DNA of 64,000 nt, taken from Aquimarina sp. MMG016. Lineage in GTDB: Bacteria; Bacteroidota; Bacteroidia; Flavobacteriales; Flavobacteriaceae. Numbering within the stretch: the stretch's first letter is position 1; every line of letters starts with the position of its first letter. A program made the position numbers and the translations under genes. The notes beneath the pieces are model-generated. The model searched no databases and was not told the DNA's origin. It was given only the letters and a program-made list of their open reading frames with translations. Location: the NCBI RefSeq assembly GCF_018100805.1, contig NZ_JAGJEA010000002.1, forward strand, positions 558,001 to 622,000, given 5' to 3'. Positions 22,441 through 40,622 of this stretch are shown in pieces.

Positions 22441-25400
22441 TTATTCTTTTAATAATCGCGTGACAATTGTAGCATCTTTTTTTGCATACACCTTTACAAA
22501 ATAGATTCCTGTAGGTAGTGCATTTATATTTACTTCTGTAGTATATGCTTTTTGATCAATTCTTTGGGAAATAACTTCTCCTCCATTAAAGCTATATATA
22601 CTCACTTTATAAGTCGAAGAAGGCAGATCACGTAAAAAGACGACATCTCTTGCCGGGTTTGGATGCATAGAAATTTTAGTTTTCTCAGCCTCATTACTTG
22701 ATAGTATATCTGCTTGTCTACTAGCATTTGTTGTCACTACAAGTTTTGGCTTTTTATTCCCTTCCTTTGACCAAAAACTCACATCATTTCCTGAAGTATG
22801 CTCCACAATTAAACTTACTTTGCCACCACCAGTAACGTTATTAAGATTCCAGATATAAGTACCATTTGTATTATAAGAGGTATTTTTGGAAGCTAGTAGA
22901 GTACCTCTACTAGATTTATTACTATTAGAAAGATTATTTTCTGTCCATTCAATACCATTACCATGATATATATTGATTTGACCCTGACCCGGATCAGAAC
23001 CAACGGTGAGCTTAAGTTCTGCACTGCTTATTGTTCCACCAATTGAACTTAAATCAAACATAAGATAACTGAACCTTTTTCCTGATTCTACCCTAAGATC
23101 TGCATTGTTAAATCTTGTATTACCTTGTAGATATGCATCGTGTATAGGAGTTAATATTGTTGTTACCGGTTGTTTGCTTTGAACTGTTAACACAAAAGAG
23201 GCCTCTGAGGTATTGCCTTCATTATCTGTTGCTACAGCCTTTAAAGTTTGCGTTCCTGCAGTAACGTTTAATAATTCAGTATCATTTTGGCCAGGGTTTG
23301 CAGTACCCCATTCGTATGGCGCAAATCCTTCTTGTCTTATCAATACATCATTTATATATAGTTTAACGTTAGCTATAGTTCCATCGCTATCTTTTGCATC
23401 AACAACAACACCCAAATCATCTCCTTCGATAAATTCGTTATTAGTTGGACTTTGGAAACTAACAGAAGGTGATACTGGTCCACTTCCAACTACAGTAATT
23501 GTTTTTGTTATTGTAGTAGATGCTCCTTGATCATTTGTTGCAATTGCTTTTAGCACATAGCTTCCTGAAGCAAGGTTTACTAAAGCAGTATCATCTTGAC
23601 CGGGGTTTGCGGTACCCCATTCGTAAGGTGCGCCTCCTTCTTGTCGAACAAACGCATCATTTAGATATAATCTGATATTCGAAACGCTTCCTTCGGTAAC
23701 AGCAACAACAACACCCAAATCATCGCCTTGCTGCAACTGGGTATTGGTAGGACTAGTGAATACAATTTCAGGTGTATTGTTACATGGTTCATCTGATGCA
23801 TTCGGACCGTGAATGTAATCAATCCAAGTATGTCTATTAGCCGAAGGATCAGGTGGAAAATCCAGTCGAATTTGAGTAATTGTTCTTCCCATCCATGTAT
23901 TTAAATTACTCATATCAAACACGAGCTCTTCGAATACGTTTGTAGTCTGAGGCGAGACTGTAACCGATCGACTTGCGGAGAAACCAGGTTGATCTGTGGT
24001 TGTCCAGAATAACTGGAAAGCACCAGCAGTTTCAGATTTAGTTCTTATCCTTAATTGTGGTACTTGATTCCCTTGGAATTTTAAACCGTTTCTTACAACA
24101 TATGGATCATTAGAATTATCTGCTCTGATTAACCAATGTTCTTCACTACTTGTATTTGCCGCAGCAGTATTAAATCGTTGAAAACTTTCTGAAGTTCTAT
24201 TAAACCCAAAATTAAGATCTGAGGCATTATTTGGATTACCACAGTTATCGGTTTCTACAATATTTGGTCTCCCATCTCCATCATCATCATCGGCAGTGGC
24301 ACCATCAAGGTCATTGGTCGTACAAGGTAGAGCAGCAGGCTGAAAGCTTCCATTATTATCCCAATCAAAGAAAATGTTTACCCGGTTATCACCTTCAGCA
24401 GCTCTAAATTTTACGTATACATCGCCATTTCCTGCAATATAGTATGCATTATTTGTAGCATTCTCTACCGCCGAAACAGAATTCAAACGTGGAATACCAT
24501 TTACTCTAAAATTACCCAGTTTTCCTAAACCTTTAAAACGTGCATATCCTAAATCTCCTGCGTCTCCTCTATTCCAAATAACATGTATACTTCTATTTGC
24601 CGGAGCCTTATCAAAATAATATGTATATAAAAATCCTTCATTCACAATCATTGGGAACTTATATGTTCCGGATGACTGACTTCCAGATTCATAAAAACAC
24701 ACGTCTTCTGTTCCTGGTTTAGAACGTACTATTGACATGCGCACTCCGCTTGCATTAATTCTAGCAAACCACAATCCGGCGAAATAATAATCGGATCGAG
24801 CCGCATTCCTCCAGGAAGGATGTCTGTACTCATGTCCATCAGTTAAAAATGGAATATCCCTTATCAGCGTAGTATGTGCTTTACCAGTCAACCCACCATC
24901 ATAATCTTTAAAAAATTGACCAACTTTCCTTGCACGTGTAGCATCTGTGTTAGGTAACGGGAAAAATCTGAATGGAAAAGGTTCTGAAAATCCTTTGGTA
25001 GTTCCTCTAAAAGTAGGATTGAAATTTTCTGTTGCTCCTCCTCCTGTAATTTGCTTGATCATTTCTGAATTTGAGCGATCCCATCCTTCAAAATGACAGT
25101 CGTGGTGTCTACCAGGACCATCATAAAACCTGAAGAATTCTCTAGTACCGTTAAAAACCCCTAAATCAGAATCTGCATTGAAGAGACTATTTTCTATGGT
25201 AAGATCACCGGCCAACATAGAGCCTGTTTTATTATCACTGAAAGCACAATTATAAAAAACGGTGTTTCTATTAGTACCTCCTACACCTAATCCACAATAC
25301 AGTGCCTGGTCGTTTCCATAGAACAATCCATCTTTTATCAATTGTCTGCTATTTACATCCCAACCCCAGTTTGCTTTAAGAGAATGATCAGGGTTTAGCC

Positions 25401-26931
25401 TGTCAAAAACATCCCATCCTGTCATACACGTATGCGCTACAAAACCTTTAAAACTTCCTAGAGGTTCCTTTGATGGGTTCAAGCCTTGGTAATACGGTAA
25501 ATTCCCTGAATCAAACATCGGCTTTTCTGGAAAAGCAAACCAAAATCCTGTTCCTTCGGTTCCTGCAGCCACATTATTTTCAAAATAATTATTAGGGTTC
25601 GTGATCCAATAAGAAGCTGGTGTCCTATTTTGAGGCTGATTGTGTGAATTGTCAGAAGGCGTTAGCTCTTCTCCCGGTCTAGGTCTTCTTGTTACAAATA
25701 CAACATTATTCTTAATGGTATTAAAGCGTTCAGCTCCATCTTCTAAAAAAATACCATGGCCTATTTGATCATAGGCAAAAACACCATCAACCGTCACATA
25801 ATCTGTACCGTGAATCGTTACCGCTCTATTAAATGATTTATGCACACTACTATTTCTTAAATAACTGCCTTGTGCTTTATCTTCATTTAAATGCCAGTGA
25901 AATGGGTATCTTCCTAAAACTGCTTTCTGTCCCATTTTATACAGCTCTATATTTTCTGCATGAGCCGTAGAATTCTTCATCAACATAATATGACCTCCAA
26001 ATCCTGTTTCTTCATTATTCCCATCCATTTTACCCTGGATTTTGATATAATGGGATAATAAGCCTACTTCACCCTGGATATTCACATCCCAGGTTTTTCC
26101 ATCTCTTGCTCTGGTGTATGATTTTGATCCTCCTATATGCTTATATTGTAACGGATCTTTTAATGTAAGTGTTCTTCTATTGCCACTAATGGCAATAATT
26201 TCAGCTTCATCAACATCGTTCCAGGCTTTTCCGCTATTAGTAGCCAAACCGGTAGCAGTCAGTGCAATTTGATCCCCTACTTCCCAATCAACAGCTTCTT
26301 TTAAGGTGATTTGGGTAGCTCCTGCATTTGCAGTAGTAGAAAGGTTGGTCCAGCTCATTCTTTTCTTTCCGTGTAGCTCTAATCGACCCCCGCCCATAAC
26401 CATAATGGCTTTATAGGATGCTGGTGCATTATTCTGTTTACCGCCTGTTAAAGTTATTACACATTTTTCCGTGGCGGCATACGGTTGGGCTGCTGTACCG
26501 ATTTCCATTTTTCCGGAAACCATAATACTTTGAGTTTCTAAATTAATCCATGCTCCTTCATTCTGCCAGTTAACAGCATTTAATATACCATTAACCCTAA
26601 TAGTTTTTGCACGGCATGTTCCTACTAGTGTTACTTTTCTACCGACTGGTATTGTTACATCATCATTTTCGGTTGGCAATTTATTTCCTGGCCATATACT
26701 CGGTTCAGACCACAACCCATCAGCTACGGGTTGTATAGCTGCTAAATTAGCAGGTGGTGCGCAATCAATGGAAGATGTGACCTTTGGCGGAGTGTTTGTG
26801 GAAAATGAATCAGTTCTAAAAATAGTATTAGCATAAAATATAGCACAACTTAATAGCGTTAAAACTAGTAGTTGTCTTCGAAAAGAAAATTCTTTTTTAG
26901 GGGTTAATCGATTTGTGGTGATAGCATTCAT
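22441..26931 (-). CDS. G8-domain beta-helix protein with CBM96 and T9SS sorting domain
   Basis: A 1496-residue secreted protein. After a signal anchor (about 18-35) comes a G8 domain (about 70-170; GLWSEPSIWPGNKLPTENDD, then TIPVGRKVTL). A right-handed beta-helix follows (about 290-600; RYPFHWHLNEDKAQGSYLRN, then HGIFLEDGAERFN). This architecture resembles the CEMIP/KIAA1199 hyaluronan-depolymerising family. Next come a beta-sandwich at about 905-1045, two bacterial Ig domains (about 1054 and 1152), a DNRLRE-type module now classed as CBM96 (about 1254-1400, alginate-binding in characterised members) and a T9SS type A tail (ISMHPNPARDVVFLRDL). It is the last gene of the modular cluster. A uronic-acid polymer substrate is inferred from neighbours. 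Confidence 0.82.
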   Translation of the reverse strand: MNAITTNRLTPKKEFSFRRQLLVLTLLSCAIFYANTIFRTDSFSTNTPPKVTSSIDCAPPANLAAIQPVADGLWSEPSIWPGNKLPTENDDVTIPVGRKVTLVGTCRAKTIRVNGILNAVNWQNEGAWINLETQSIMVSGKMEIGTAAQPYAATEKCVITLTGGKQNNAPASYKAIMVMGGGRLELHGKKRMSWTNLSTTANAGATQITLKEAVDWEVGDQIALTATGLATNSGKAWNDVDEAEIIAISGNRRTLTLKDPLQYKHIGGSKSYTRARDGKTWDVNIQGEVGLLSHYIKIQGKMDGNNEETGFGGHIMLMKNSTAHAENIELYKMGQKAVLGRYPFHWHLNEDKAQGSYLRNSSVHKSFNRAVTIHGTDYVTVDGVFAYDQIGHGIFLEDGAERFNTIKNNVVFVTRRPRPGEELTPSDNSHNQPQNRTPASYWITNPNNYFENNVAAGTEGTGFWFAFPEKPMFDSGNLPYYQGLNPSKEPLGSFKGFVAHTCMTGWDVFDRLNPDHSLKANWGWDVNSRQLIKDGLFYGNDQALYCGLGVGGTNRNTVFYNCAFSDNKTGSMLAGDLTIENSLFNADSDLGVFNGTREFFRFYDGPGRHHDCHFEGWDRSNSEMIKQITGGGATENFNPTFRGTTKGFSEPFPFRFFPLPNTDATRARKVGQFFKDYDGGLTGKAHTTLIRDIPFLTDGHEYRHPSWRNAARSDYYFAGLWFARINASGVRMSIVRSKPGTEDVCFYESGSQSSGTYKFPMIVNEGFLYTYYFDKAPANRSIHVIWNRGDAGDLGYARFKGLGKLGNFRVNGIPRLNSVSAVENATNNAYYIAGNGDVYVKFRAAEGDNRVNIFFDWDNNGSFQPAALPCTTNDLDGATADDDDGDGRPNIVETDNCGNPNNASDLNFGFNRTSESFQRFNTAAANTSSEEHWLIRADNSNDPYVVRNGLKFQGNQVPQLRIRTKSETAGAFQLFWTTTDQPGFSASRSVTVSPQTTNVFEELVFDMSNLNTWMGRTITQIRLDFPPDPSANRHTWIDYIHGPNASDEPCNNTPEIVFTSPTNTQLQQGDDLGVVVAVTEGSVSNIRLYLNDAFVRQEGGAPYEWGTANPGQDDTALVNLASGSYVLKAIATNDQGASTTITKTITVVGSGPVSPSVSFQSPTNNEFIEGDDLGVVVDAKDSDGTIANVKLYINDVLIRQEGFAPYEWGTANPGQNDTELLNVTAGTQTLKAVATDNEGNTSEASFVLTVQSKQPVTTILTPIHDAYLQGNTRFNNADLRVESGKRFSYLMFDLSSIGGTISSAELKLTVGSDPGQGQINIYHGNGIEWTENNLSNSNKSSRGTLLASKNTSYNTNGTYIWNLNNVTGGGKVSLIVEHTSGNDVSFWSKEGNKKPKLVVTTNASRQADILSSNEAEKTKISMHPNPARDVVFLRDLPSSTYKVSIYSFNGGEVISQRIDQKAYTTEVNINALPTGIYFVKVYAKKDATIVTRLLKE
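22621..23185 (-). repeat. Long near-identical DNA repeat (copy in the G8 gene)
   Basis: This stretch, encoding the CBM96 module and the beginning of the sorting domain, is collinear with 27508-28070 in the next gene upstream. Long blocks are identical base for base, with only scattered substitutions. It reflects recent duplication or gene conversion. Confidence 0.85.
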
Positions 26932-27134
26932 GATGTGTTAGTTAATGTATTATACGTTGTGTGTTAGTAAATATGTTAAGTTTATTTTATCTCGATTTTA
27001 CTTTTAAAATCAATTCGATTTTTTGAGAGTCCTTTCATGATTTTTATATGTTTTTTTTTGATCTTTGAATGCAGGTTTTTTTTAGTATAATTCATTGATT
27101 TTATAAATTATTTATGCTTTTAAAGGTTTGGATA

Positions 27135-27170
27135 AATCCATCAGGAAATCTTAAGATTTCCTGATGGATT
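27135..27170. repeat. Perfect 36-base palindrome
   Basis: The 18 bases AATCCATCAGGAAATCTT (27135-27152) are followed at once by their reverse complement (27153-27170). It lies just beyond the stop of the decayed sorting-domain fragment at 27182-27307, where a lost gene would have ended. There is no T-tract on either side, so it may be a relic terminator. The remaining DNA between 26932 and 27134 is AT-rich and shows no other feature. Confidence 0.8.
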
Positions 27171-27181
27171 ATGAACTAAAA

Positions 27182-27307
27182 TCATAGTTGCTGTTTTATA
27201 AAATGCAATGATTTATTAATACTATTCTCCATAATATTTAAGATACAACTACCCGCTTCTGATATTTCTATAAGTAATTGGTAAACGTTTACTACTTCTA
27301 TTTTTTT
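27182..27307 (-). pseudogene. Decayed T9SS C-terminal sorting-domain fragment (copy 1)
   Basis: On the minus strand this reads KKIEVVNVYQLLIEI, then SEAGSCILNIMENSINKSLH, then FIKQQL and a stop. It aligns along its length with the tail of the 1738-residue protein ([36 protein letters not shown]). There is no upstream catalytic region and no start codon in a sensible place. It is read in a different frame from the gene that ends at 27324. It is the scar of a deleted modular gene. Confidence 0.7.
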
Positions 27308-27323
27308 GAATAATACTCCAAGT

Positions 27324-29087
27324 TTATAGTTTGAGAAATCTTGTTTTTAAAGCTTTTTTATTACTAGAGAACACTTTTACGAAATACAAACCTGACTCAA
27401 GGTCTTGCACATCTAACCTAATCTGAGACTGATCTTTATTTATTTTTTTGGTTGAAATTTCTTTTCCTTGAAAATCATAAACATTTACTTGATAGGTTGA
27501 AGATGGAAAGTCACGTAAAAAGACGACATCTTTCGATGGGTTGGGATGCATAGAAATTTTAATTTTATCAGTTTCTTTGCTCGATAATACCTCCACTCGT
27601 CTACTACCATTTGTTGTAACTACAAGTTGCGGTTTTTTATTTCCTTCCTTTGACCAGAAACTTACATCATTTCCTGAAGTATGCTCCACAATTAAACTTA
27701 CTTTGTCACCGGCAGTAAAGTCATTAAAATCCCAGACATAAGTGCCATTTGTGTTAAAAGAGGTGTTTTTGGAAGCTAGTAGAGCACCTCTACCAGATTT
27801 ATTACTATTAGAAAGATTATTTTCTGTCCAATCGATACCATTACCAAGATATATATTGATTTGACCATTACCTGGATCAGAACCAACGGTGAGCCTAAGT
27901 TCTGCACTGCTTACTGTACCAGCAATTGAGTTTAAATCGAACATCAGATAACTGATCCTTTTTCCTGATTCTACCCTAAGATCTGCATTGTTAAATCGTG
28001 TATTTCCCTGTAGATATGCATCATGTATAGGAGTTAAGACTGTTGTCACTGGTTGATTGTTTTGAACAATTAATCTATAACTATCTTCTCCTGTGTTGCC
28101 TTCATTATCTGTGGCCACTGCCTTTATCGTATAGGTGCCAGGAGAAAGTCCATTAACTTCTTCGGGATTAGGAGAAGTAGCATGCCCCCAAGTATATGGA
28201 AAGACATTTTCTTGTCTCACTAAGTTATTATTAATATACAATCTGACATTATTTATGGTTCCATCCTGATCGGTGGCATTGACTTCGACCTCCATATCAT
28301 ATCCTTCCTGAACATTTAAATCCCCTGAAGGTTTCACAAAAGAAACAACAGGATTCATTGTGGAAACCTCACCTTCTACCTTTAAGGTAATGGTAGCTTC
28401 AGCTGTGGCACCATCATTGTCAGTTGCTACTGCTCTAATCGAATGATTGCCTATTGACAAACCTAATAACTCATTTGCATTACTTCCATTACCCCAGGTA
28501 TATGGAGCTATATTTTCCTGGCGAATGAGATTTCCATTTACAAATAATTTTACATTACTGATGGATCCATCAACATCTGAAGCATTCACCTCAATATCAA
28601 AACTAGTGTATCCTTCCTGGACTGTTGCATTGCCAGAAGGTGTCTTAAAAGAAACTGAAGGTCTACTATTTCCGCCTCCAAACCGGGGTCTACTTCTTAA
28701 CCAATTCATATCCCATTTAGGACCTATTGTTTGACACCCAGATGGTCCCTGATCAACACGACCGGGACAGGCGTCAGGATCTTCATCTCCTGCATCATTG
28801 GCAGGACCATTACCACATTGAATATCATTATAAGGAATATCACTACTTCTAAATTTTCGATATCTTGGATGTTTCTCTAGTTCATTGCAAATATCTCTTA
28901 CACTATATTTATTACCATTTATAGTTACTTTTTTATTACTGATTCCATGATCGAAATTACTATCACAAAAGCAATAACCATTAGCTTTGTAACTATCTTT
29001 CCAACTAGGTCTTGGGTTCCATTGTGCTAGTACTGTTCCTATAGAAAAGACCAACATTATGAGTAAAAGAATCTTTTTCTGTTTCAT
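27324..29087 (-). CDS. Secreted Ig/CBM96 binding protein without a catalytic domain, T9SS-sorted
   Basis: A 587-residue protein from the ATG at 29087 (MKQKKILLLIMLVFSIGTVL signal); an upstream in-frame start adds 14 unlikely residues. Residues about 25-130 form a cysteine-rich domain I do not recognise (NGYCFCDSNFDHGI, YNDIQCGNGPANDAGDEDPD, PGRVDQGPSGCQTIGPKW). Two bacterial Ig modules follow (about 142 and 249), then a CBM96 module (about 346-494) and a T9SS tail (ISMHPNPSKDVVFLRDF). No lyase or hydrolase region is visible, so it probably binds or displays a polysaccharide. Its 3' third is nearly identical in DNA to the neighbouring G8 gene. Confidence 0.75.
   Translation of the reverse strand: MKQKKILLLIMLVFSIGTVLAQWNPRPSWKDSYKANGYCFCDSNFDHGISNKKVTINGNKYSVRDICNELEKHPRYRKFRSSDIPYNDIQCGNGPANDAGDEDPDACPGRVDQGPSGCQTIGPKWDMNWLRSRPRFGGGNSRPSVSFKTPSGNATVQEGYTSFDIEVNASDVDGSISNVKLFVNGNLIRQENIAPYTWGNGSNANELLGLSIGNHSIRAVATDNDGATAEATITLKVEGEVSTMNPVVSFVKPSGDLNVQEGYDMEVEVNATDQDGTINNVRLYINNNLVRQENVFPYTWGHATSPNPEEVNGLSPGTYTIKAVATDNEGNTGEDSYRLIVQNNQPVTTVLTPIHDAYLQGNTRFNNADLRVESGKRISYLMFDLNSIAGTVSSAELRLTVGSDPGNGQINIYLGNGIDWTENNLSNSNKSGRGALLASKNTSFNTNGTYVWDFNDFTAGDKVSLIVEHTSGNDVSFWSKEGNKKPQLVVTTNGSRRVEVLSSKETDKIKISMHPNPSKDVVFLRDFPSSTYQVNVYDFQGKEISTKKINKDQSQIRLDVQDLESGLYFVKVFSSNKKALKTRFLKL
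27508..28070 (-). repeat. Long near-identical DNA repeat (copy in the Ig/CBM96 gene)
   Basis: Collinear partner of 22621-23185. The shared stretch ends near the junction between the second Ig module and CBM96, which marks the module boundary at which the exchange took place. Confidence 0.85.
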
Positions 29088-29263
29088 GATTTTTGGGTTT
29101 TTATTCGTTTCGGTTTTGAGGATTAGCATTCATTTTCAGAAAATATTTCACCATATAAATCAATGATGTTTTCTTAACAACTCAATGAAATTAACAGGTG
29201 TAATTGTAGCTCATCTGTTTTGAATTAAATTAACCGCTAGATTTTGTAAACTTTCTAAGAAAT

Positions 29264-29290
29264 CTTAGCCTTTAGTGTTTAAAGGCCAAG
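29264..29290 (-). terminator. Relic hairpin downstream of a sorting-domain fragment
   Basis: CTTAGCCTTT (29264-29273) pairs with AAAGGCCAAG (29281-29290), ten pairs with one wobble, just past the stop of the fragment at 29303-29416. It has the same layout as the hairpin after the G8 gene. The rest of the 29088-29599 gap is AT-rich. Confidence 0.5.
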
Positions 29291-29302
29291 ATACCTTATA
29301 GC

Positions 29303-29416
29303 TCATTCTTTTAGAAAGTACAATGATTTATTAATACCATTCCCTTTTATATTTAAGATATAACCACCTGTTTCTAATGTTTCTATAGACAACTGATATA
29401 CTTTTATTCCCTTTGC
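29303..29416 (-). pseudogene. Decayed T9SS C-terminal sorting-domain fragment (copy 2)
   Basis: The minus strand encodes AKGIKVYQLSIETLETGGYI, then [17 protein letters not shown] and a stop. It is almost the same as the end of the 1738-residue protein ([18 protein letters not shown]). A stop codon lies directly before it in frame, and no start is present. It is a second scar of a lost modular gene, between the Ig/CBM96 gene and the PL14/DUF5060 gene. Confidence 0.75.
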
Positions 29417-29540
29417 CTACGTATGTAAAACTCTTCGTCCAGGCAAACAATATCATTGTTAGTTATATCCTTTTTAAATTCTAATTTTATTTAGCTAATA
29501 GACACTAAATATTATTATATAGAACATTTATGAAGTTAAA

Positions 29541-29573
29541 CCCAGCCCCTTCTTCATAGAAATTGGGGCCAGG
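29541..29573 (-). terminator. Terminator-like hairpin after the PL14/DUF5060 gene
   Basis: CCCAGCCCC (29541-29549) pairs with GGGGCCAGG (29565-29573), nine pairs including two wobbles. It lies 27 bases beyond the stop at 29600. The minus-strand continuation is TTTAACTT, a weak T-tract. Confidence 0.5.
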
Positions 29574-29599
29574 CATACTTTTTTGAATAATTTCTCTTA

Positions 29600-32500
29600 C
29601 TATTCTTTTATGAAATGCAATGATTTATTAATACCATTACCCTTTATATTTAGAATATAGCTACCGGCTTCAAGAGGAGCCACAAATAATTGATAATCAT
29701 CGGTATTAACTACCTTTTTATCTATTAGTCTACGGCCAACAATATTAAATACTTGTATTAAGACTTCTTGTTGTTCTAACCCTTCAATAGATAGCATATC
29801 GCTTTTAACAGGATTAGGGTGTAGCTTTATACTTTTAGAACTTTTTTGAGATATTGAAATTTTACTTAGTCTAACAGCACAAGATGGAGCTTGAGTAGAA
29901 TTACTAAAATAAAGTGTGAATTCACTATTTTTAGATACCATCACAAAGTTGTCACCATCTTTTACCACCCAATAAGCACCATCTAATCCTGCAAAACCAG
30001 TGTTAGACAGAGTTACTTCAGGGCTAGTACTATTTAGCTGATAAGTCATGGTATCAGAGAAATTCACATACCAGTTTGGAACTCCGTTATTAGTATTAAT
30101 AGCAAACTTATAAAGTCCATTATAAGTAGGGTTCCAATTGATTGAGAACTCTCTAAAATTACTAAGGTCAGGACCTCCTTGTCCCAGAACATGAACATAT
30201 GAATATGAAATATTATCCATTGCCGGAATACCACTAGAAATTGGTGTTCCGAAGGAACAACTTCCATTATTCCCACCTCCATCATTACTTTGTATAGTTA
30301 AAGTGAAAGTGTCCTGAGCTGTATTACCATCATTATCTGTTGCTATCGCTTTAAAAGTATATGTCCCAACGGAAAGACCATTAACTTCTTCAGGATTAGG
30401 CGAACCATCGTGACCCCATTCGTACGGAGCAAAGTTTTCTTGTCGCACAAGAGCATTGTTAATGTATAGTTTTACATTAGATATAGTTCCATCCGTGTCA
30501 TTGGCATTTACTAGTACTGTTAAATCATACCCTTCATCCACAGTAAGATTACCTGAAGGTGTAGCAAAAGAAACGCTTGGTAATTGATTACCAGTTTCTT
30601 CCTTAATGATGACTGTTCTGGATACTTCTGTAGAAAGTCCTTCCTGGCCAGCTTCAAAAGCTCTTGCTCCAACCGTATAAGTTCCTGCAGCTGTTGGTGT
30701 CCAGGACACGCTATAAGGAGCAGTTTGATCTTGTTTGAAATATGAACCACTAATTTTGAAGTTTACTTTTTCAATACTTCCTTCAGCATCTGATGCATTG
30801 GCACTTAATGAAATAGTTTCTCCAAGTATATATTCCTGATTCTCCTGAGATGGGTTTGTCAAAGAAACCTGTGGAGCTTGATTACCAGAAGCCCCGTCTA
30901 CTGTCAATGTAAAGCTTTTACTCGTTGTTGCTCCATCATCATCTGTCGCCTCAGCTCTGATTGTGTGCTCACCCACTGGTAGACCTAAAAGTTCTGATAC
31001 GTTATCACCCATTCCCCAGTCGTATGGTGCAAAAAGTTCCTCACGAATTAGATTTCCATCTACAAATAATTTTACATTACTTACTGAACCATCACTATCT
31101 GTAGCATTTACAGTAACTTCAAAACTAGTATATCCGACTTGTACAGAAGTATTTCCTGTTGGTGTAGCAAAAGAAACAGATGGAGGTTCATTCTCCGTCG
31201 GGTTCGAATCATTTTTAGTGATTACAATTACCCAATCGCTACCTGTGCTATTTGGAGCATTACCAAGCGATCTGTTTCCTCCTCCATTGACAGTGGTCAC
31301 AGAACCATTTACTAAGTTTCCACCATTTCGAGGGTTATACCACTTTACATTAAATTGCCCACTTTGACCGTTTAAGTTCAGATTTGTTGATCCCCCATTT
31401 TTTAGATATACCACATAAGCTTCTCCTTGTTTTGCATAGCAATAGTCATTATTATTAGAAGACAACCCATTGTTATTTCTCATTTGTGTCAGAGGAAGGT
31501 CTGTAATTTCAAAAAATCGTATGGCGTGACGACCATAGTCCCACCATTTATCTCTACTTCTAAAATCTTGCAATGAAAGATCTGAATGTGCATTCTGATA
31601 CCCGAAATACCATTCATTTCCCCATCCACCAGCGAGAAGGGTTGCCCACATTGCATTTTTTCTACCATCTGTATGAGAATTCGCTGCATTATTATCTGGT
31701 CGTATTGCATGCTGTGCATCACCTGGTTCATCACAAGCGATTGCCCATTTTTTTCCTTCATTTCTGGATTTATCGATTCCTTCTTTTACTCTACTAAAAA
31801 CATTTGTAAAATCAGACTTGTTTGTTTGTAACGAAAATCCAGTAAGTCTCGATTGATTTCCGAGCAAATATTCCGGAAAATCATTTGGATGTTTATGAAT
31901 AACCACATGGTGACGATACGGATCATTCTTATAAAAATAATCTGCCATTGCTCTTTCCTGCGCAGGTGATTGATCTACTGCTTGCGGTCCACCACCATTT
32001 TCTTCTCCTAAGTTCCAATTTAATGCCAAATTGTGGCCAAATCTCGCAATTAATTCACGATAATATAGTTTACGTTGTGTTCCTGTGTTACCATTATCCA
32101 AAAGTGTTTCATTCTCAGTTTCCTGAGTTTTAAAATGAGCAAAAATTCCATTTTGCTGCATATGTTCTATCACAATTGCCCATTGTGCCATTTTAGAAAC
32201 ATCCATTCGGGTACGTTGATTACCACCGATATACGGATACACATTCTCATCGTCTCCGTTAATATTCATCGTAAGGAAAGACATAGAATTTAATCCTTCA
32301 CTAGCGATATAGTTTACAGCACCAATCAATCCTTTTCCTTTACCACTTTTCCAAGTAGGATCTCCACTGTTCCAATCTCCTTTATGAGGGTTGAAGTTTT
32401 TTCTTCTATTGCCTGCATTAGGTGTATTATCAAAATCATCATATGCGAATAAATTCTCTGGAGAGTCTGGTCCTTGTTTGATCATATATTCGCCTGTTTC

Positions 32501-34816
32501 GGCAAAACGCAGATAATGTTCTCCTACATACTGTAAACGTCCTTTTCCTCTAAAATCTCTACCCGATTTATTAGATGCGCTTACATTGAATGACCCAGTT
32601 TCTCCATTCATAAATCCTGCAGCAGTTCCGGCATTAACACCATCATTTACTGCTACATTGCTTCCTTTTCTAAAAGACACTGAGTAATTCCAAGTTCCTG
32701 TTTTATCAGGAGCAAAATGAGCTCTCCATTTATTACCGCTGGATGCAGATGTCTGTGCAGCATTTCCATCGGCAGCATAATACCCTGGTACAACATAAGA
32801 CGGAGAACCGCTTTGGTGTGTAAAAGTTACATTTAATCTATAATTCAAAAACGGATTATCGCCTGCTGTTTCAGAAGTATTTGGCCCATTGAAGGTTAGT
32901 GTTACTTTGTGCCATTTTTTTCGCTCACCTGTAATAGTAGCGCTGCTATTATTACCTCCGCCACCATCACCATCACAAGTAGTTTCTTCTAAAGATAAGT
33001 TTGTGGCATTGGTACTTGTTCGGTTTAAAGTTACTCTATCCACTATATGGTGTTTAGAACGACCAGATATTAGCATTGTGTATACACCTGGCGAATCAAA
33101 CTCTACAAAAACATCGTGCGGATCGTTATCGTTTGTTTTTGTCGCCCAGGTCCAATTTGTGGTTCCTGTAGAATACACTTTAAGATATCCTTCTCCGCTT
33201 GCACCTTCTGGGTGTGGTGTTTTTCCTGATCCTTTAGGATACACTCTTTCGCTACCTTTTTGCCCATAAAAATCATCTGCGTCGGGAAATTTTAACCAAG
33301 TATCATTTGCTTCTGTTGGACTATTTCCTTCTCCAACTTTTGATCTCCACAAAACTTTATATTTACCTGCAGAGTTAATCTTAATCTTAGTATTTATAAC
33401 TCCATTACCTGGGTCATTGAAATGATCAGGACCTGTCCATTCTATATAACCTCCACCAGTAAAACCAGAAATGGCACTCTTTTTTTGCCAATTCCCTGAA
33501 GCCGATAGATTTTCTGCTTCTATAATCACCAAACCATTTTTTTCTTCGTATGCAGCATCACAATTACCGCCACCGCCATTACCTCCACCATCAGAATTAC
33601 TCACGGTAAAACTTTTTGTAGCTTCACCTTTAGCTCCATTATTATCTGTTACCACAACCTTGACTGTGTAATTTCCTGGTTGAAGATTAACTATTGGATG
33701 TGGTGTATAACTTGCTCCATCTGTATCCACTAACGTTCCATTTACAAATACTTCATGTTTTGAGATACTACCGTCAGGGTCATTGGCATTAATCTCTACC
33801 GAAACATCACTGCCTGCATTATAGTTTGCCTGATTAGGACTTGTAATCGAAACTGTTGGCGGTTTATTATCTCCTCCAGGGGGATTGCCACATCCTGTCC
33901 AAACTTTGAAATCGTCGAAAAAAGTATATTCTGTCCTAGGTGAATGCCAAACAGGATCTGTTCTGCTTCCCCCTCGATAAGTATTCATAATTAAGGCATT
34001 GATTTTTAAATTGCTTTTCCCCGAATTACGAATTTTGGCATTATTATCACGATAGGTTTCTTGTCCATCAATCCACATGATCACAGTACCGTTCCTTTGT
34101 CCAGGCGTGTTCATTTTGATATATTGACGGATTGTATACCACTTGTTGTCTTTCAGATTTGAAAAAATTCTTTTTCCATCCCCGCAATCTCCATCCTTTC
34201 TAGGTTCTCCATTTTGTTTGTCGGCGAAATAGCTATAAAGAATAAGGTAAGGTGCATTAGTCTGCGCTCTATTTCTTCTCCACATTAAGCGCGCGGACCA
34301 TCCATCTGTATTGTATTTACATCCCGATGGAATGGCTCCTCTACCAGTGGTTTCGCTATTTACTCCTCTAGTAGAACCTCCCAAACCAGGTAATTTACCT
34401 CCTGTAGCCCAAAAGAAATTATCATCAAATTTTACTTTATATTCTAAATACGCTTCATCTACAGCATCAAAATAAGGGTCAAAAAGAAACCCCCCTGACC
34501 TACCTGAAGCGTCATTCTTTAAATACTGTGCTCTTAAAGTTCCATTAACAATTCTAGTCTCCTGTGGTGTGTTTTCTATCAAATTATTTGCAGCACCTGG
34601 ACCTTCTACTCCTCTGTAGGTAGATGCAGTCCACGGCTTTACATTATTAAAGTCACTTTTTAAATCTGCAATAGAGTATCGTCTGTTATTCCAATTATTA
34701 AAATCGACATCAATCATAGTATTACAGTTCTGCGCCTTAGCTCCTGAAATTATGAATAGCAGCAATCCTATCATAATTTTTAATCTATTGATATAAATAT
34801 GTGTTATTTTCATCAT
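29600..34816 (-). CDS. Multimodular PL14-like lyase + DUF5060 glycosidase, T9SS-sorted
   Basis: A 1738-residue secreted protein. Order: signal (to about 28); PL14/PL20-like lyase domain (about 30-310, with KLPGLGG near 140 and [12 protein letters not shown]); Ig module (317-405); a CBM6-like sandwich (417-600, [10 protein letters not shown]); a DUF5060 sandwich (about 624-725); a TIM-barrel glycosidase (about 730-1090) with [12 protein letters not shown], likely catalytic acid, and [11 protein letters not shown] collagen-binding-like closing domain (about 1100-1180) and three Ig modules (about 1209, 1315, 1409) follow. Then come an unassigned module (1518-1645) shared with two neighbours and a T9SS tail ([11 protein letters not shown]). 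A lyase and a hydrolase in one chain suggests stepwise breakdown of one acidic polymer. Confidence 0.8.
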
Positions 34817-34871
34817 GAGTTTATGTTAGTTTGTGTTTTTGATATTTACTCTTCCTGAATGAATCTTATTT

Positions 34872-35006
34872 CTAAGTTTCTCCCAGTTGGAATGAAGAGT
34901 CATTATCTGATAGAATATGCAATGGCTGAGTCACTAAAGACTGACCCCATGCATTTACCTCATACAAAATTGATATGAGTAGCATACGAGATTTGAGTTT
35001 TTTCAT
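34872..35006 (-). pseudogene. Short signal-peptide ORF, probable N-terminal gene fragment
   Basis: A 44-residue frame from an ATG at 35006. It begins with a basic start and hydrophobic core (MKKLKSRMLLISIL), an A-W-G-Q cleavage-like site, then a short polar tail (SLVTQPLHILSDNDSSFQLG). Reading on in a shifted frame gives NLEIRFIQEE and a stop, so one frameshift may separate it from a tail. It lies between the PL14/DUF5060 gene and the next lyase gene. It could be a real small secreted peptide or the remnant of a modular gene. Confidence 0.4.
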
Positions 35007-35094
35007 TTCTAAATTGTTAAGTTATATAATAGTTTGTGTGGCCTAGGCAGTTTTATCGATTATGTAACTGCTTTTTTATAAAAATTTTTAGGGT

Positions 35095-37251
35095 TTAGTT
35101 CTTTGCAAATTTTGTTTTAATAACATCTTGCTGACTTGATAGAATTTTTACAAAATAAAAACCAGAGAGAAGTTCATTAAGATCTAGTTTTAGTTTGGAT
35201 TGATTTGATGAAATTGGTTTAGAAAAAACCTTTTTACCATTAAAATCATATATCTCTATCTGATATGCCGACCTAGGCAAATCATCAATAGATAAAATGT
35301 CTATAACTGGATTGGGGTATACTAATGAATTTTTGGTATTATCAATTGAAATTACTTTTTGGCTTTTCCCGCTCATACACACTGGTGGTTGAGCAGAATT
35401 GCTAAAACAAATTAGTGTTTGGCTATTTTTAGACTTTAATACTAATTCTCCATTGTCCATGGTTACCCAATAATCATCATCAAGCCCCTCAAAACCTGTA
35501 TTTTTTAATGTTATCTCTGGATTCGCATCCCTCAGTTGAAAATCGGCTGTCTTACTATAATCTATATACCAATCTGGTGATCCGTTGTTGGTCTGAAAAG
35601 CAAGCTTGTATAGTCCGTTATATTTAGGGTTCCATTTAATCGAAATGCTAACAAAATTGCTTAAAAACGTAGAACTTTTTCCTCCCATAATATGAGCATA
35701 GTTATAGTGTACGTTATCCAAAGCCTTAAGCCCTTTTGAATCTGGTAGTAAAAAGGAACAGGCAGTACTATTTTCGACTGTAAGTGTTAAAGTAGCTTGA
35801 TTTGTTTTTCCTTCATTATCAGTAGCAACAGCTTTGATCGTATATACTCCTGCTTCTAGACCATTTAATTCTTCGGGGTCAGGAGAGCCGGAATGCCCCC
35901 AGGTATAAGGAGCTTTTCTTTCTTTTCTTATAAAATTATTATTAATATATAATTTCACATCAGCTATTGATCCATCTCTATCTTTTGCATCGACATCCAC
36001 TTCCAGATCATATCCTTGAGTTACTGTAAGATTTCCAGTTGGAGTAATAAAAGATATATCTGGAACTGATGAAGAAACTTCCCTTTCTACCTTTAGAATA
36101 AAAGTAGTTTCAGATGTCGCTCCTTTATCATCTGTCGCTACTGCCTTGAAAGTATGGTTACCAACCGTTAGACCAAGTAATTCATTTGCATTTCTGTCAT
36201 TACCCCAAGTATATGGTGCTATATTTTCCTGGCGGATTAATTCGTCATCAATATATAATTTCACATTACTTATACTCCCATCGTTATCAAAAGCATTGAC
36301 TTCTACCGGAAAACTTGAATATCCTTCCTGTATGGTAGAATTAGTCGATGGTGTTTTAAAAGACACCGATGGCAATTGATTACTTCCTCCTGGATTATTT
36401 ACACCTCCATCATATCCAATTCTTGTTTTTGATACTATGAAATTATCAAAATAGGCATAGAGATCTTTGGTAGGTTTATAATCGTCACTACTTCCTCCAA
36501 AAAAAGTGGATAAATAGATGTTATTCATTCCTATATCACCTTCTCCGTTTTGACGATAATCACTATTATCTATAATATCAATGGCTAATTCTCCATTAAG
36601 CCAACCACGCATAATACCATCATTTTGACCCGGAGTGTTCAACTTATGATATACTTCGATATGGTTCCAGGCACCTTTCTTGAGTTTAACCTGATCTGGT
36701 TGTGGTCCTCCGGGTTCTTCATATGGTTCTATCAAACTCCAATTTACAGAAGCTCTCCATCCATCCCAAGAAGGTCTTGTGTTAAAGTGATTATAAAATT
36801 CTAAAAGTCCATCGTATCGCCACATTAGGCGTAATGACATATTTTTTTCACTAGTTTGATACGCCAAACCTGGTAATTTGGCTCCCGCTCTAAACTCAAA
36901 ATCTTCAGGTATATACACTTGGTAACTGAAATATAATTCGTCTAAAGATGTGTAACTATCCCAATAGACTTTGGTATGCATACCACTATCATTTGTTTTT
37001 ACTTTTCCTTTAGGATATTTAACTTTTAAAACATTTCCTTTATTCTGAAATTCGGAAATAAATACTCTACCTTCATCTGCACCTTTACAGAAGTGAGCCC
37101 CTAGTGCTTCTTTTATTTCTTCTTCATTATATTGCCCTGTAGGCAAATGATCAAAGTTATTTTGATATACCCTATCCTGTTGAGCAGAAAAAGTAATTGT
37201 TACGAATAGTGAAACCATCAAAATTAGGTTTCTTTGTGTGAAAAGAGTCAT
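35095..37251 (-). CDS. PL14-like polysaccharide lyase with Ig and shared C-terminal modules, T9SS-sorted
   Basis: A 718-residue secreted protein. Signal peptide (to about 22, ending TFSAQQ), then a PL14/PL20-like lyase domain (about 24-285). In this domain ELYFSYQVYIPEDFEFRAGA is followed by KLPGLAY, then SLRLMWRYDG and VYHKLNTPGQNDGIMRGWLN. These families cleave glucuronan or alginate-like chains. Two Ig modules follow (about 295 and 395), with the RQENIAPYTWG signature. The unassigned module is at about 496-625 and the T9SS tail (VYPNPVIDILSIDDL) ends the protein. It shares its lyase fold with the first domain of the 1738-residue neighbour. Confidence 0.8.
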   Translation of the reverse strand: MTLFTQRNLILMVSLFVTITFSAQQDRVYQNNFDHLPTGQYNEEEIKEALGAHFCKGADEGRVFISEFQNKGNVLKVKYPKGKVKTNDSGMHTKVYWDSYTSLDELYFSYQVYIPEDFEFRAGAKLPGLAYQTSEKNMSLRLMWRYDGLLEFYNHFNTRPSWDGWRASVNWSLIEPYEEPGGPQPDQVKLKKGAWNHIEVYHKLNTPGQNDGIMRGWLNGELAIDIIDNSDYRQNGEGDIGMNNIYLSTFFGGSSDDYKPTKDLYAYFDNFIVSKTRIGYDGGVNNPGGSNQLPSVSFKTPSTNSTIQEGYSSFPVEVNAFDNDGSISNVKLYIDDELIRQENIAPYTWGNDRNANELLGLTVGNHTFKAVATDDKGATSETTFILKVEREVSSSVPDISFITPTGNLTVTQGYDLEVDVDAKDRDGSIADVKLYINNNFIRKERKAPYTWGHSGSPDPEELNGLEAGVYTIKAVATDNEGKTNQATLTLTVENSTACSFLLPDSKGLKALDNVHYNYAHIMGGKSSTFLSNFVSISIKWNPKYNGLYKLAFQTNNGSPDWYIDYSKTADFQLRDANPEITLKNTGFEGLDDDYWVTMDNGELVLKSKNSQTLICFSNSAQPPVCMSGKSQKVISIDNTKNSLVYPNPVIDILSIDDLPRSAYQIEIYDFNGKKVFSKPISSNQSKLKLDLNELLSGFYFVKILSSQQDVIKTKFAKN

Positions 37252-37274
37252 ATTTTGGGTGTTTGGTTATAGGT

Positions 37275-37304
37275 ACCGGGTAAAATAAATTTACCCGGTT
37301 TTTT
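37275..37304 (+). terminator. Plus-strand terminator in the gap between two minus-strand genes
   Basis: ACCGGGTAAA (37275-37284) pairs with TTTACCCGGT (37290-37299) across a 5-base loop and is followed by a T-run to 37304. The T-tract is on the plus strand, opposite to both flanking genes. Confidence 0.65.
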
Positions 37305-37322
37305 AAAAATTATTAACTGATA

Positions 37323-40300
37323 TTATTCCTTTAGGAGACGTGTCATCTTTTTGTATTTACGACCTTTAATGACAATTAAATACAATCCTGCTTCTAGAGA
37401 AGAAACATCGACAGAAATTTCTTTCTCAGGAACGAACTCATTAATTATAGTTCGTCCTTGGATATCTAAAATCTCAAGAGTAGTTTTTGACTGTTCTAAA
37501 TTAGAAATCGTAATGATGTCCCCTTCAACTGGGTTAGGAAACGCTTTAATAGCTCCTGATTTACCTCCTGGTGCTAAAACCGCAATTCTATTGGAACAAT
37601 TTGGTGCGGTTCCTGAATTATTAAAATACAAAGTAAAGTCACCTGTTTTAGAAACCATTACGAAGTTATTACCATCTTTAGCCACCCAATAATCTCCATC
37701 TAAACCGGTAAATCCGGAATTAGAAATGGAGACATCGGGATTGTTAGTGTTGAAACTATAGCTCATAACATTTCTTAAGTCCACATAATAATCCGGAACT
37801 CCATTATTGGTATTCATTGCAAATTGATACAATCCATTTTGAGAAGGATTCCAATTGATTCTAAATCTTCTAAAATTACTTAGGTCCGGTCCATTTGTTC
37901 CTAAAACATGAACATTATTATAAGAACCTTTATCAAAAGCAGGTAAACTGCTGGATAATGGTGTTCCAAAATCACAAGCATTGCCTCCACCGGTATCTTC
38001 ACTTTTTACAGTTAGTGTAAAGGTTGTTTCGGAAGTCGTTCCTTCGTTGTCCGTTGCTTCTGCTTTAAAAATGTGAGTTCCAACTGGTAAATTGTTTACT
38101 TCATTTGGATTTGGGGATGCAGCATGTCCCCACTCGTAAGGATCAAAATTTTCTTGTCTTACAAAATTATTATCTATATAAAGTTTTACATTAGCAATAG
38201 TTCCGTCACTATCAGATGCATTTACCTTAACATAAAGGCTATATCCTTCATCTACTGCTATATTCCCTGAAGGTGAATCAAACGAAACTACTGGTGCTTG
38301 ATTTCCTCCTGTATCACCAGAGACTGTAACATTTATGATACTAGAAGTCGTTACTGCTCCATCATTGTCGGTAGCTCTTGCTGTTAGTGCATAATTTCCT
38401 TCCGAAGCACTATTAATTGTATAAGAATATGGTGCAGTTGTATCTTCTCCAAGTCTTGTACTTCCTTTAAAAAACTCTACTTTAGTTACTGATCCGTCAG
38501 GATCATTGGCATTGGCATTGATCTGGATATTTGCACCTGTATCAAAATCTGCTCCGTTAGAAGGAGAGGTAATATTTACGTTAGGGCTTTGATTTCCGCC
38601 TCCTGAACAAGGAACTATGTTCCAGCTAGGACAAGATTCTGTTACAAAATTTGTCGTTCCATCACTGATAGGAAAATCAGGTGAGTTAGGATTACGTGTA
38701 TTATTCCACACGTGAATTTCAGATGGATCACCTTGTTTTTTTCTGGCTGTTGGGATTTCGTTTGCTCTACTACCTAAATTAAACGTATTATCAAAAATAG
38801 CATTTCGATACCCTGTATTAAATCCAGTTCCTCTGTCTAAGAAATCAACCCCAGCATTAAGAATGTTAGATCCATCTCGATTAAAAGTATTATTATATAC
38901 AAACGCGTAAGATCCTTTTAGATCAATAAAAGCATCGGCACTGTTTTCTCCAGATATTCCTTGAGCAGAGAAAGTACAATTACGAATAATTGTATTTTTG
39001 GTTCCTTCTTTTACGTCAACACCTTCAGCAGTTACATTAGGCCCAACAATACAACCATCAATGGTATTATTATTACATTCTCTTTCATAATCATCGTGCT
39101 GTCCTTTATCAGACCCTACATACAATCCTTCACCAATTCCTGGTTTTTTAATACCAACATTATATACCCTACAATCTTTAACCAGATTAAAACTAGATCC
39201 ATCTCTTAGGTGAATTCCTTCTTCTCCCAGTTCTCTGACAGTTACATTTTCTAAAAGTCCACGATTGGCATTATCGAATACAATTCCTTTAGAACCTTCT
39301 TCAAAAATTATATTTTTTATTTGCCAATGATCCCCTAACATATGCAATACATAGCCATCATATTTCCCATCTTCACCTTTTAATATTGGTGGATTTGAAG
39401 GGTTTAGAGCTCTCATAATAATAGGATTGGCAGATGTACCATTTTTGTTTGAGGCAAATCTGGCAGCTCTTCCTCCGATATTTATTTTATCAGGAGCTTC
39501 ATAGGTTCCTGGAGCTATTATGATTTCATCTCCCGGCTGTGCGTTTTGCATAGCATTTCTAATACAATTTACTGTATTACAATTGATAGTTCCACTTGGA
39601 TCAGGATCTCCTCCATCCTCTGACCAGTTCTCGATAATATCTTTAATAAAAGTACCGGTCGATGTCAATTGATTATTTTTTAATCCATTGATCCCTTGAC
39701 CAGGTTGTACAATAGATGATCCTTCTGATTTATCACTTACAGCCCAATTTACGTGGCTAATGCCGTTGTCTTTAAAAAACTGCATCCATTTTTCTGTTTC
39801 TGCTACATCCGCGCTACCATCTCCATTAGCGTTAACTGCTCCCCACTCGGTTGCAAAAATGGCTACTCCATTATTAAGTGCGGTCTGTGCTTTATTTCTC
39901 AAAAACTGAGTATGTGTACCAGAATAAAAATGCAATGTATAAGCAGTATTAGAATCATTTATTGGGTTATTTGACGCAACGTCTACATCCTGAGACCAAG
40001 TTGGAGATCCTACGATAATTAAATTATCCGGATCCTCGGATCTAATAGCTGCAATAACTGTTTCGGCATAACTTTTTACCTGAGACCAAGACTGATTGAT
40101 AGGCTCATTGTAAACCTCATAAATTACATTTGGCTGATTGCCATAGAGGGATGCCATTTCTTTAAAGAAATCGGCAGCTTCAGAAGTGTAGTTTTCGGCC
40201 TCATGGGTATGCCAATCAATAATAACATAAATTCCTTCGGCTATAGCTGCATCAATTACCTTTCGAATTTTATTTTTTTGAAAACTTGGACTGTCTATAT

Positions 40301-40622
40301 AACCTGTACCGCCATCCCAGCTTTCTTTTACTCCCATGGCAACACGAATAATCGAACTATTCCAATCGCTTGCAAGATGTTTTACAGTTTCGGCATCATA
40401 AAAATCAGAAGTATCCCCGGCATTACTCCAAAAGAGACTGTTTCCGGCAAGACTTGTAGGGACATTGTTTTTATCAACAATTTTGTTGCCATTGACCCTT
40501 AATCTACCATGATTTTCTACTGGTGACTGAGCAAAAATAGTAGAATATGATAATAAAAAAACGAAGACTAAATGTTTAGCAATAGGTTTTAAGGCATAAA
40601 GGTATTTTCCTTTAATTTTCAT
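37323..40622 (-). CDS. GH5 glycosidase fused to a parallel beta-helix, T9SS-sorted
   Basis: A 1099-residue secreted protein and the first gene of the cluster. Signal to about 31; GH5 barrel at about 35-335 with acid/base E173 in EVYNEP and nucleophile E259 in FATEWG. Then a D/P/S linker and a right-handed beta-helix (about 345-685; [20 protein letters not shown], then repeats such as [20 protein letters not shown]) of the kind found in lyases and epimerases. Ig modules follow at about 674 and 774. The unassigned module (about 879-1005) and a T9SS tail end the protein. GH5 resembles endo-beta-1,4-glucanases, but the substrate is open. The promoter should lie in the 590-base gap shared with the regulator. 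Confidence 0.82.

Follow-up and report, generated by a model that had tools for sequence, protein, structure and literature searches.

A UKD/CBM113 module on three secreted enzymes of a marine Aquimarina, and probable limits to dual cellulose and alginate binding in its family

The module that stands before the sorting domain of three secreted enzymes of Aquimarina sp. MMG016 is an ordinary, well-placed member of the UKD family, which was proposed as CBM113 in May 2026 (ISME J; PMC13235733). Since the family was described in 2026, the module cannot be called unassigned. Taken as a whole, the evidence makes it very probable that this beta-barrel carbohydrate-binding module (CBM) holds three chains exported by the type IX secretion system (T9SS) on the brown-algal wall, and that it sits in a slot where modules can be swapped; the binding face of one of the three copies probably differs. 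The three enzymes are encoded in the window, by which we mean the whole stretch of 64,000 nucleotides that was analyzed. A preliminary description of this DNA had guessed at a carbohydrate-binding function; the guess was right, as binding has been shown experimentally for the close homologue 9KVN, yet it was already published (PMC13235733).

Five neighboring minus-strand genes at 22441-40622 encode large proteins that each end in a T9SS sorting domain, and three of them, the open reading frames of 1738, 718 and 1099 residues (hosts 1, 2 and 3), carry the module (Table 1). Its place before the sorting domain, which had been noticed at the outset, was confirmed in all three hosts, where a Por_Secre_tail match follows about 20 residues after the end of each copy. 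The coordinates first given for the copies lie within 10 bases of the limits from cysteine to cysteine, and the motifs quoted for them are present (for example INWNP in copies 1 and 3 and IKWNP in copy 2). The three copies are 50-62% identical, copy 2 being 50% and copy 3 62% identical to copy 1. This recurrence is far beyond chance, as a profile built from the three copies finds eight copies in the 5.35-Mb genome of the strain, all with E-values of at most 4.7e-42. Five of them are outside the window, and a ninth match with an E-value of 0.22 was not counted as a copy. The divergent gene at 41213-45283 appears, by eye, to encode a hybrid two-component regulator.

Table 1. Module copies, their host proteins and the two cluster neighbors that lack the module (positions in the window)
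Feature	Position	Strand	Description
UKD/CBM113 copy 1	29879..30259	-	cysteine to cysteine; in the 1738-residue PL14 and DUF5060 protein
UKD/CBM113 copy 2	35377..35760	-	cysteine to cysteine, start counted by hand; in the 718-residue PL14 protein
UKD/CBM113 copy 3	37596..37976	-	cysteine to cysteine; in the 1099-residue CelAly homologue (by its domain matches)
Host 1, 1738 residues	29600..34816	-	PL14, Big7, stretch without assignment, DUF5060/Collagen_bind_2 chain, Big7 repeats, UKD, T9SS sorting domain
Host 2, 718 residues	35095..37251	-	PL14, Big7, Big7, UKD, T9SS sorting domain
Host 3, 1099 residues	37323..40622	-	GH5, PL31-like alginate lyase, Big7, Big7, UKD, T9SS sorting domain
Cluster neighbor without UKD	22441..26931	-	G8 and CEMIP beta-helix chain; CBM96 takes the UKD slot ahead of the sorting domain
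Cluster neighbor without UKD, 601 residues	27324..29129	-	N-terminal module without Pfam match, two Big7, CBM96, sorting domain

The family assignment comes from the sequences in the PDB, where the profile of the three copies matches 9KVN with an E-value of 1.2e-61 and the next chain with 0.17. Searched singly, the hosts match 9KVN at 7.9e-58 (host 3), 6.4e-52 (host 1) and 2.9e-32 (host 2). This entry is the 'unknown domain UKD' of CelAly from Aquimarina sp. 2-A2 (PMC13235733), and the match places the module in UKD/CBM113, contrary to the preliminary description, which had recognized no familiar CBM family in it. That description had also taken a strong match to a named CBM as grounds against its proposal; the family is indeed already named, but the match confirms the function instead of refuting it. 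The copies resemble 9KVN in length (a 126-residue chain), in the leading cysteine, in the aromatic patch and in the slot before the sorting domain. A full-text literature search for CBM113 returned PMC13235733 as its sole match. Over the module part of each of the three proteins Pfam and NCBIfam gave no match, PADLOC gave none for copy 1, and 63 copies scanned against Pfam showed only scattered weak matches, the best with an E-value of 0.0055 and none in more than four members.

Copy 1 was modeled by AlphaFold from 63 aligned sequences (pLDDT 93.5) and copy 2 from 39 (pLDDT 90.0), and both models consist almost entirely of beta structure. When these were compared with the PDB by Foldseek, 9KVN alone matched with an E-value of 0.001 or less, both among the 530 matches of copy 1 (target-normalised TM 0.97, rmsd 1.0) and among the 623 of copy 2 (0.90 and 1.7). 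Going by the models, the two copies share the beta-barrel fold of 9KVN with its flat aromatic plane, rather than the beta-sandwich with a cleft that had been expected. No CBM besides 9KVN is named in the best 50 of 530 and the best 50 of 623 Foldseek matches. The next match of the copy 1 model has an E-value of 0.30, and that of the copy 2 model is 7l5l (DiB-RM; E-value 0.04, probability 0.95, TM 0.48), which we take to be a lipocalin derivative; it is followed by fatty-acid-binding-protein barrels and carboxylase pieces. The model of copy 2 thus leaves room for a distant likeness to barrels of the lipocalin or fatty-acid-binding-protein type.

Among the three hosts, host 3 is the closest to the published system. 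It matches Cellulase (E-value 1.3e-61), the alginate lyase 6kfn (2.3e-56), which is presumably a PL31 structure, 9KVN and Por_Secre_tail, and its first Big7 domain matches the alginate-binding Ig domain 9KVU. Its order of GH5, PL31-like lyase, two Big7 domains, UKD and sorting domain is that of the CelAly-type GH5-PL31 enzymes, with no architectural difference seen (PMC13235733). Judging by these matches and their order, the 1099-residue protein is a CelAly homologue with the CelAly-type domain make-up. Hosts 1 and 2 differ from CelAly in being PL14 chains, and their PL14 domains match the solved alginate lyase 5gmt.

Binding, structure and mutants have been demonstrated for the 9KVN homologue, which is reported as a nine-stranded beta-barrel with a flat aromatic binding plane (PMC13235733). 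It binds insoluble cellulose via Tyr50, Tyr63 and Tyr64, and alginate gel by what 'may be' Arg36, Lys100 and Lys110, so the common substrate that had been supposed for the hosts gives way to two targets, cellulose and alginate (PMC13235733). The kinetic effects given there are those of all accessory domains together: the Km for cellulose is 50.9 compared with 54.7 mg/ml for the cellulase domain alone, which is a small gain, and the Km for alginate is about twofold better (0.31 versus 0.71) (PMC13235733). In 9KVN numbering copy 1 has R36, Y50, W63, Y64, K100 and K110, so that its one departure is a Trp in place of Tyr63, and copy 3 keeps all six published binding residues. Copy 2 has the same Y/W/Y aromatic plane as copy 1 and keeps K110, but has V36 and M100 at the other two alginate sites, with basic residues at K41, K51, R76 and K108.

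Going by sequence and model, the aromatic patch of the window copies would lie flat on cellulose, and the basic residues at 36, 100 and 110 would grip gelled alginate. Copies 1 and 3, in which both sets are kept, should then bind both polymers, whereas copy 2 would probably hold an acidic polysaccharide on a different face. In each case the module would anchor its catalytic chain on the brown-algal cell wall. The idea that the three copies bind alike was dropped because copy 2 is without Arg36 and Lys100. Since the family as a whole does not share basic residues at 36 and 100, copy 2 stays a UKD member by sequence and fold.

Dual binding of cellulose and alginate is in fact probably not a family-wide property, as the binding residues sorted by host suggest. 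We gathered 200 distinct copies and kept 197 after dropping three shorter than 115 residues. Host classes were assigned by single-sequence searches with representative domains that Pfam had identified on 26 representative hosts, and the cellulose-degrading class consists of GH5, GH8, GH9, GH48, AA10 and expansin-like hosts. The copies come from named loci and from stretches chosen among the matches listed, and the counts are those of a sample in which related copies are counted apart. Arg or Lys occupies position 36 in 84 of 96 copies on alginate-cluster hosts (GH5-PL31 23/23, lyases 39/51, others 22/22) compared with 11 of 88 on cellulose-degrading hosts, 0/8 on cytochrome-type hosts and 2/5 on unclassified ones. 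Position 100 is basic in 20/23, 28/51 and 18/22 copies of the three alginate-cluster groups and in 14/88, 2/8 and 2/5 of the others, in the same order. The corresponding counts at position 110 are 23/23, 49/51 and 22/22, then 71/88, 5/8 and 5/5; because a basic residue is usual here regardless of the host, K110 may not be specific to alginate. In non-redundant rows the three aromatic sites are all Tyr, Trp or Phe in 74 of 79 cellulose rows and in 56 of 62 alginate-cluster rows, the latter counted with 9KVN and outside the sub-clade of copy 2, whereas all three alginate positions are basic in 42 of the same 62 rows versus 2 of the 79. The aromatic platform therefore looks general, and basic residues at 36 and 100 mark the alginate-cluster branch. 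The platform is not identical throughout, as 39 of the 88 copies on cellulose hosts have Trp64 and none of the 96 on alginate-cluster hosts do.

These counts led us to a tentative reading, possible without being the safer bet, in which cellulose binding is the shared function of CBM113, alginate binding through Arg36 and Lys100 belongs to the alginate-cluster branch, and the basic binding face has been rebuilt at 41, 51, 76 and 108 in the PL14 sub-clade to which copy 2 belongs, so that this barrel would have evolved a charged site a second time, independently of the first. The alginate binding may have been gained in the alginate-cluster clade or lost on the cellulose side, between which the tree cannot tell. 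The competing explanation is that dual binding is general to the whole family and that the residue differences are neutral divergence. We consider it unlikely, given how sharply the three basic sites divide the hosts while the aromatic sites are kept, and given that position 36 ranks third among 126 columns in separating alginate-cluster hosts from cellulose and cytochrome hosts. The same ranking also speaks for it, as columns 15 and 44, neither with a reported binding role, outrank position 36, and the cellulose residue Tyr64 (rank 23) separates hosts about as well as Lys100 (rank 22); position 110, ranked 78th, holds a basic residue in the majority of copies in each large host class.

General dual binding draws further support from phylogeny. 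The tree was built on 161 rows after removal of the six functional columns, and falls into an alginate-cluster group of 72 rows and a cellulose group of 89 rows, a division with support 88 and unstarred. Because of this two-group division the association of residues with hosts comes mostly from one old split, and the difference at position 36, which follows it, may reflect no more than common descent. Five changes of host type are required on the tree, and the independent pairs number three on supported branches and five on all branches. On the supported pairs a basic residue at 36 goes with host type in a mean of 0.8, goes against it in 0.0 and shows no difference in 2.2, and with three such pairs a phylogeny-corrected test of residue 36 cannot reach significance. 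Rows found on the other side of the split point both ways. Four cellulose-class rows inside the alginate-cluster group (two GH9 rows of L030, GH9 of L062 and GH5 of L038) keep Arg36, as expected from descent. The cellulose group contains four rows of lyases or bifunctional enzymes (L045, L103, L107 and L109) with Lys or Arg at 36, as expected from selection; their placement is unsure because their branches are long (1.28 for L109, 0.99 for L107 and 0.71 for the stem of L045 and L103).

Under the tentative reading of a branch-limited alginate site, copy 2 is a case of its own. On the tree it belongs to a starred sub-clade of ten rows of PL14 enzymes, with a mean pairwise identity of 63% (50-86%) and 43 of 126 columns invariant. 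Arg36 occurs in none of the ten, and basic residues are found in one at position 37, in none at 68 and in one at 100. Positions 41, 51, 76 and 108 are basic in all ten, compared with frequencies of 0.02, 0.16, 0.26 and 0.00 in the other alginate-cluster rows, 62 with 9KVN included. Five invariant residues are specific to this sub-clade, two of them being Lys41 and Lys108, and Lys41 is what gives copy 2 the IKWNP variant of the motif. From this pattern the lineage perhaps has a relocated basic site at 41/51/76/108. The mean overall charge of the sub-clade shows no rise (-3.6 versus -3.2). The aromatic patch is intact in five of the ten rows; position 50, which is Tyr in the window copy, is Ser in five and Phe in one.

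Within its own genome the strain has both kinds of module. Of the five copies outside the window, two share a GH9-GH48 protein, and one each is found on a GH5 protein, on a GH9-GH5 protein and on a cytochrome protein with CBM3. Within the genus 39 of 66 genomes gave matches, compared with 10 of 397 in a family draw and 4 of 395 in a phylum draw; the draws overlap and each counts the genome of the window. Genomes of named species yielded 33 loci when scanned, most of them in Aquimarina and the others in Flavobacterium, Olleya, Marinigracilibium and Flammeovirga, and the module closest to the window's among them (81%) is that of Aquimarina mytili. In viral contigs none of the 13 pattern matches encodes a relative. 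A plasmid search with the 718-residue protein gave 21 records, none with 80% query coverage; among the best 10 of these 21 the identity is at most 39%, eight match along the Ig region but do not take in the whole module, and in Persicobacter plasmids H2 and H4 the match also spans the module.

The cytochrome protein of the same genome (L051:8556-15620, minus strand; G000 C1 720555-727619) has 2355 residues, and besides UKD and a T9SS sorting domain it carries a beta-propeller-like region that matches the surface-layer protein 1l0q, CBM3, PKD domains and a region like di-haem cytochrome c peroxidase with CXXCH at 988 and 1120. Eight UKD hosts in the sample were classed as cytochrome-type. By its domains the 2355-residue protein may be a cellulose-bound redox protein, and any connection with AA10 oxidases is conjecture. 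Two alginate-cluster proteins, L023:6753-8891 (plus strand, 713 residues) and L018:6834-9668 (plus strand, 945 residues), end in Big7-UKD and a sorting domain. Their first roughly 280 (L023) and 505 (L018) residues gave no Pfam match at an E-value of 1e-5 and no PDB match at 0.01, which makes these regions candidate new catalytic families.

The slot between the Big7 linkers and the sorting domain appears to accept more than one module. The two cluster proteins without UKD have CBM96 (PF24517) there, with E-values of 3.7e-12 and 4.3e-13, and the preliminary description had remarked that the two modules look interchangeable. This is borne out by one natural swap in the chain at residues 633-1205 of the 1738-residue protein. 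It has 14 distinct relatives, 83-91% identical, that end in UKD (rows cut by contig or locus ends left out), and in Aquimarina sp. U1-2 (L040, with the end read in L121, G799) an 83%-identical chain ends in Big7-Big7-CBM96 and a sorting domain with no UKD. Distant DUF5060 chains in cellulose clusters, 48-51% identical, have CBM96 where the sequence suffices, and G8 chains have CBM96 in five of five complete sampled cases and UKD in none of the five. The swap and the distribution over hosts point to a slot that is exchangeable for wall-binding modules, in which CBM96 can replace UKD.

The same part of the cluster holds other features of note. The CBM96 modules at 22717-23166 and 27600-28049 (minus strand) are 86% identical over 150 residues, which suggests a recent duplication or gene conversion event within the cluster. 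The protein at 22441-26931 (minus strand) combines G8 and a CEMIP-type beta-helix with CBM96 within an alginate-lyase cluster; vertebrate CEMIP is linked to hyaluronan. Seven sampled relatives keep about 850 residues of it at 77-85% identity, and three short cut pieces show 61-72%. The N-terminus of the 601-residue protein (28671-29024, minus strand) is a cysteine-containing module of about 115 residues without a Pfam match. Counting the strain itself, 26 of 57 Aquimarina genomes have this module, and in both relatives that were scanned it is linked to Big7 and a fascin/FRG1-like domain.

Position alone could suggest that the module is a structural spacer, or an accessory of the T9SS sorting domain in folding or secretion, as 150 of the 167 complete hosts sampled have their last copy ending no more than 125 residues from the C-terminus, where the sorting domain sits. 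We regard this as very improbable, since the genome has 100 sorting-domain matches against eight UKD copies, the last copy is away from the C-terminus in 17 of 66 complete cellulose-class hosts, and the homologue 9KVN has been shown to bind polysaccharides (PMC13235733). That UKD is itself a divergent CBM96 is hardly credible and was rejected: a close neighbor-joining relation with CBM96 and CBM80 is reported (PMC13235733) and UKD and CBM96 share a slot, but profile-profile comparison gives a probability of 0.3% (a weak test, the CBM96 side being five similar sequences), CBM96 is absent from the Pfam matches of 63 copies at an E-value of 0.1, leaving no sequence relation detectable by either route, and CBM96 is described as a beta-sandwich whose groove takes up internal alginate chains (PMC9971899), in contrast to the UKD beta-barrel (PMC13235733).

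A domain in a marine polysaccharide cluster is now assigned, and the three enzymes that carry it are tied to attachment on the brown-algal wall. What stays of interest is how far the dual-binding claim holds, together with the changed lineage of copy 2. The published claim of two polymers would be limited in its reach, as two of the three alginate residues are largely absent from the modules on cellulases and AA10 oxidases. Because the genome of this strain has both kinds, three copies on alginate-lyase hosts and five on cellulase or cellulose-binding hosts, the claim can be tested within a single strain.
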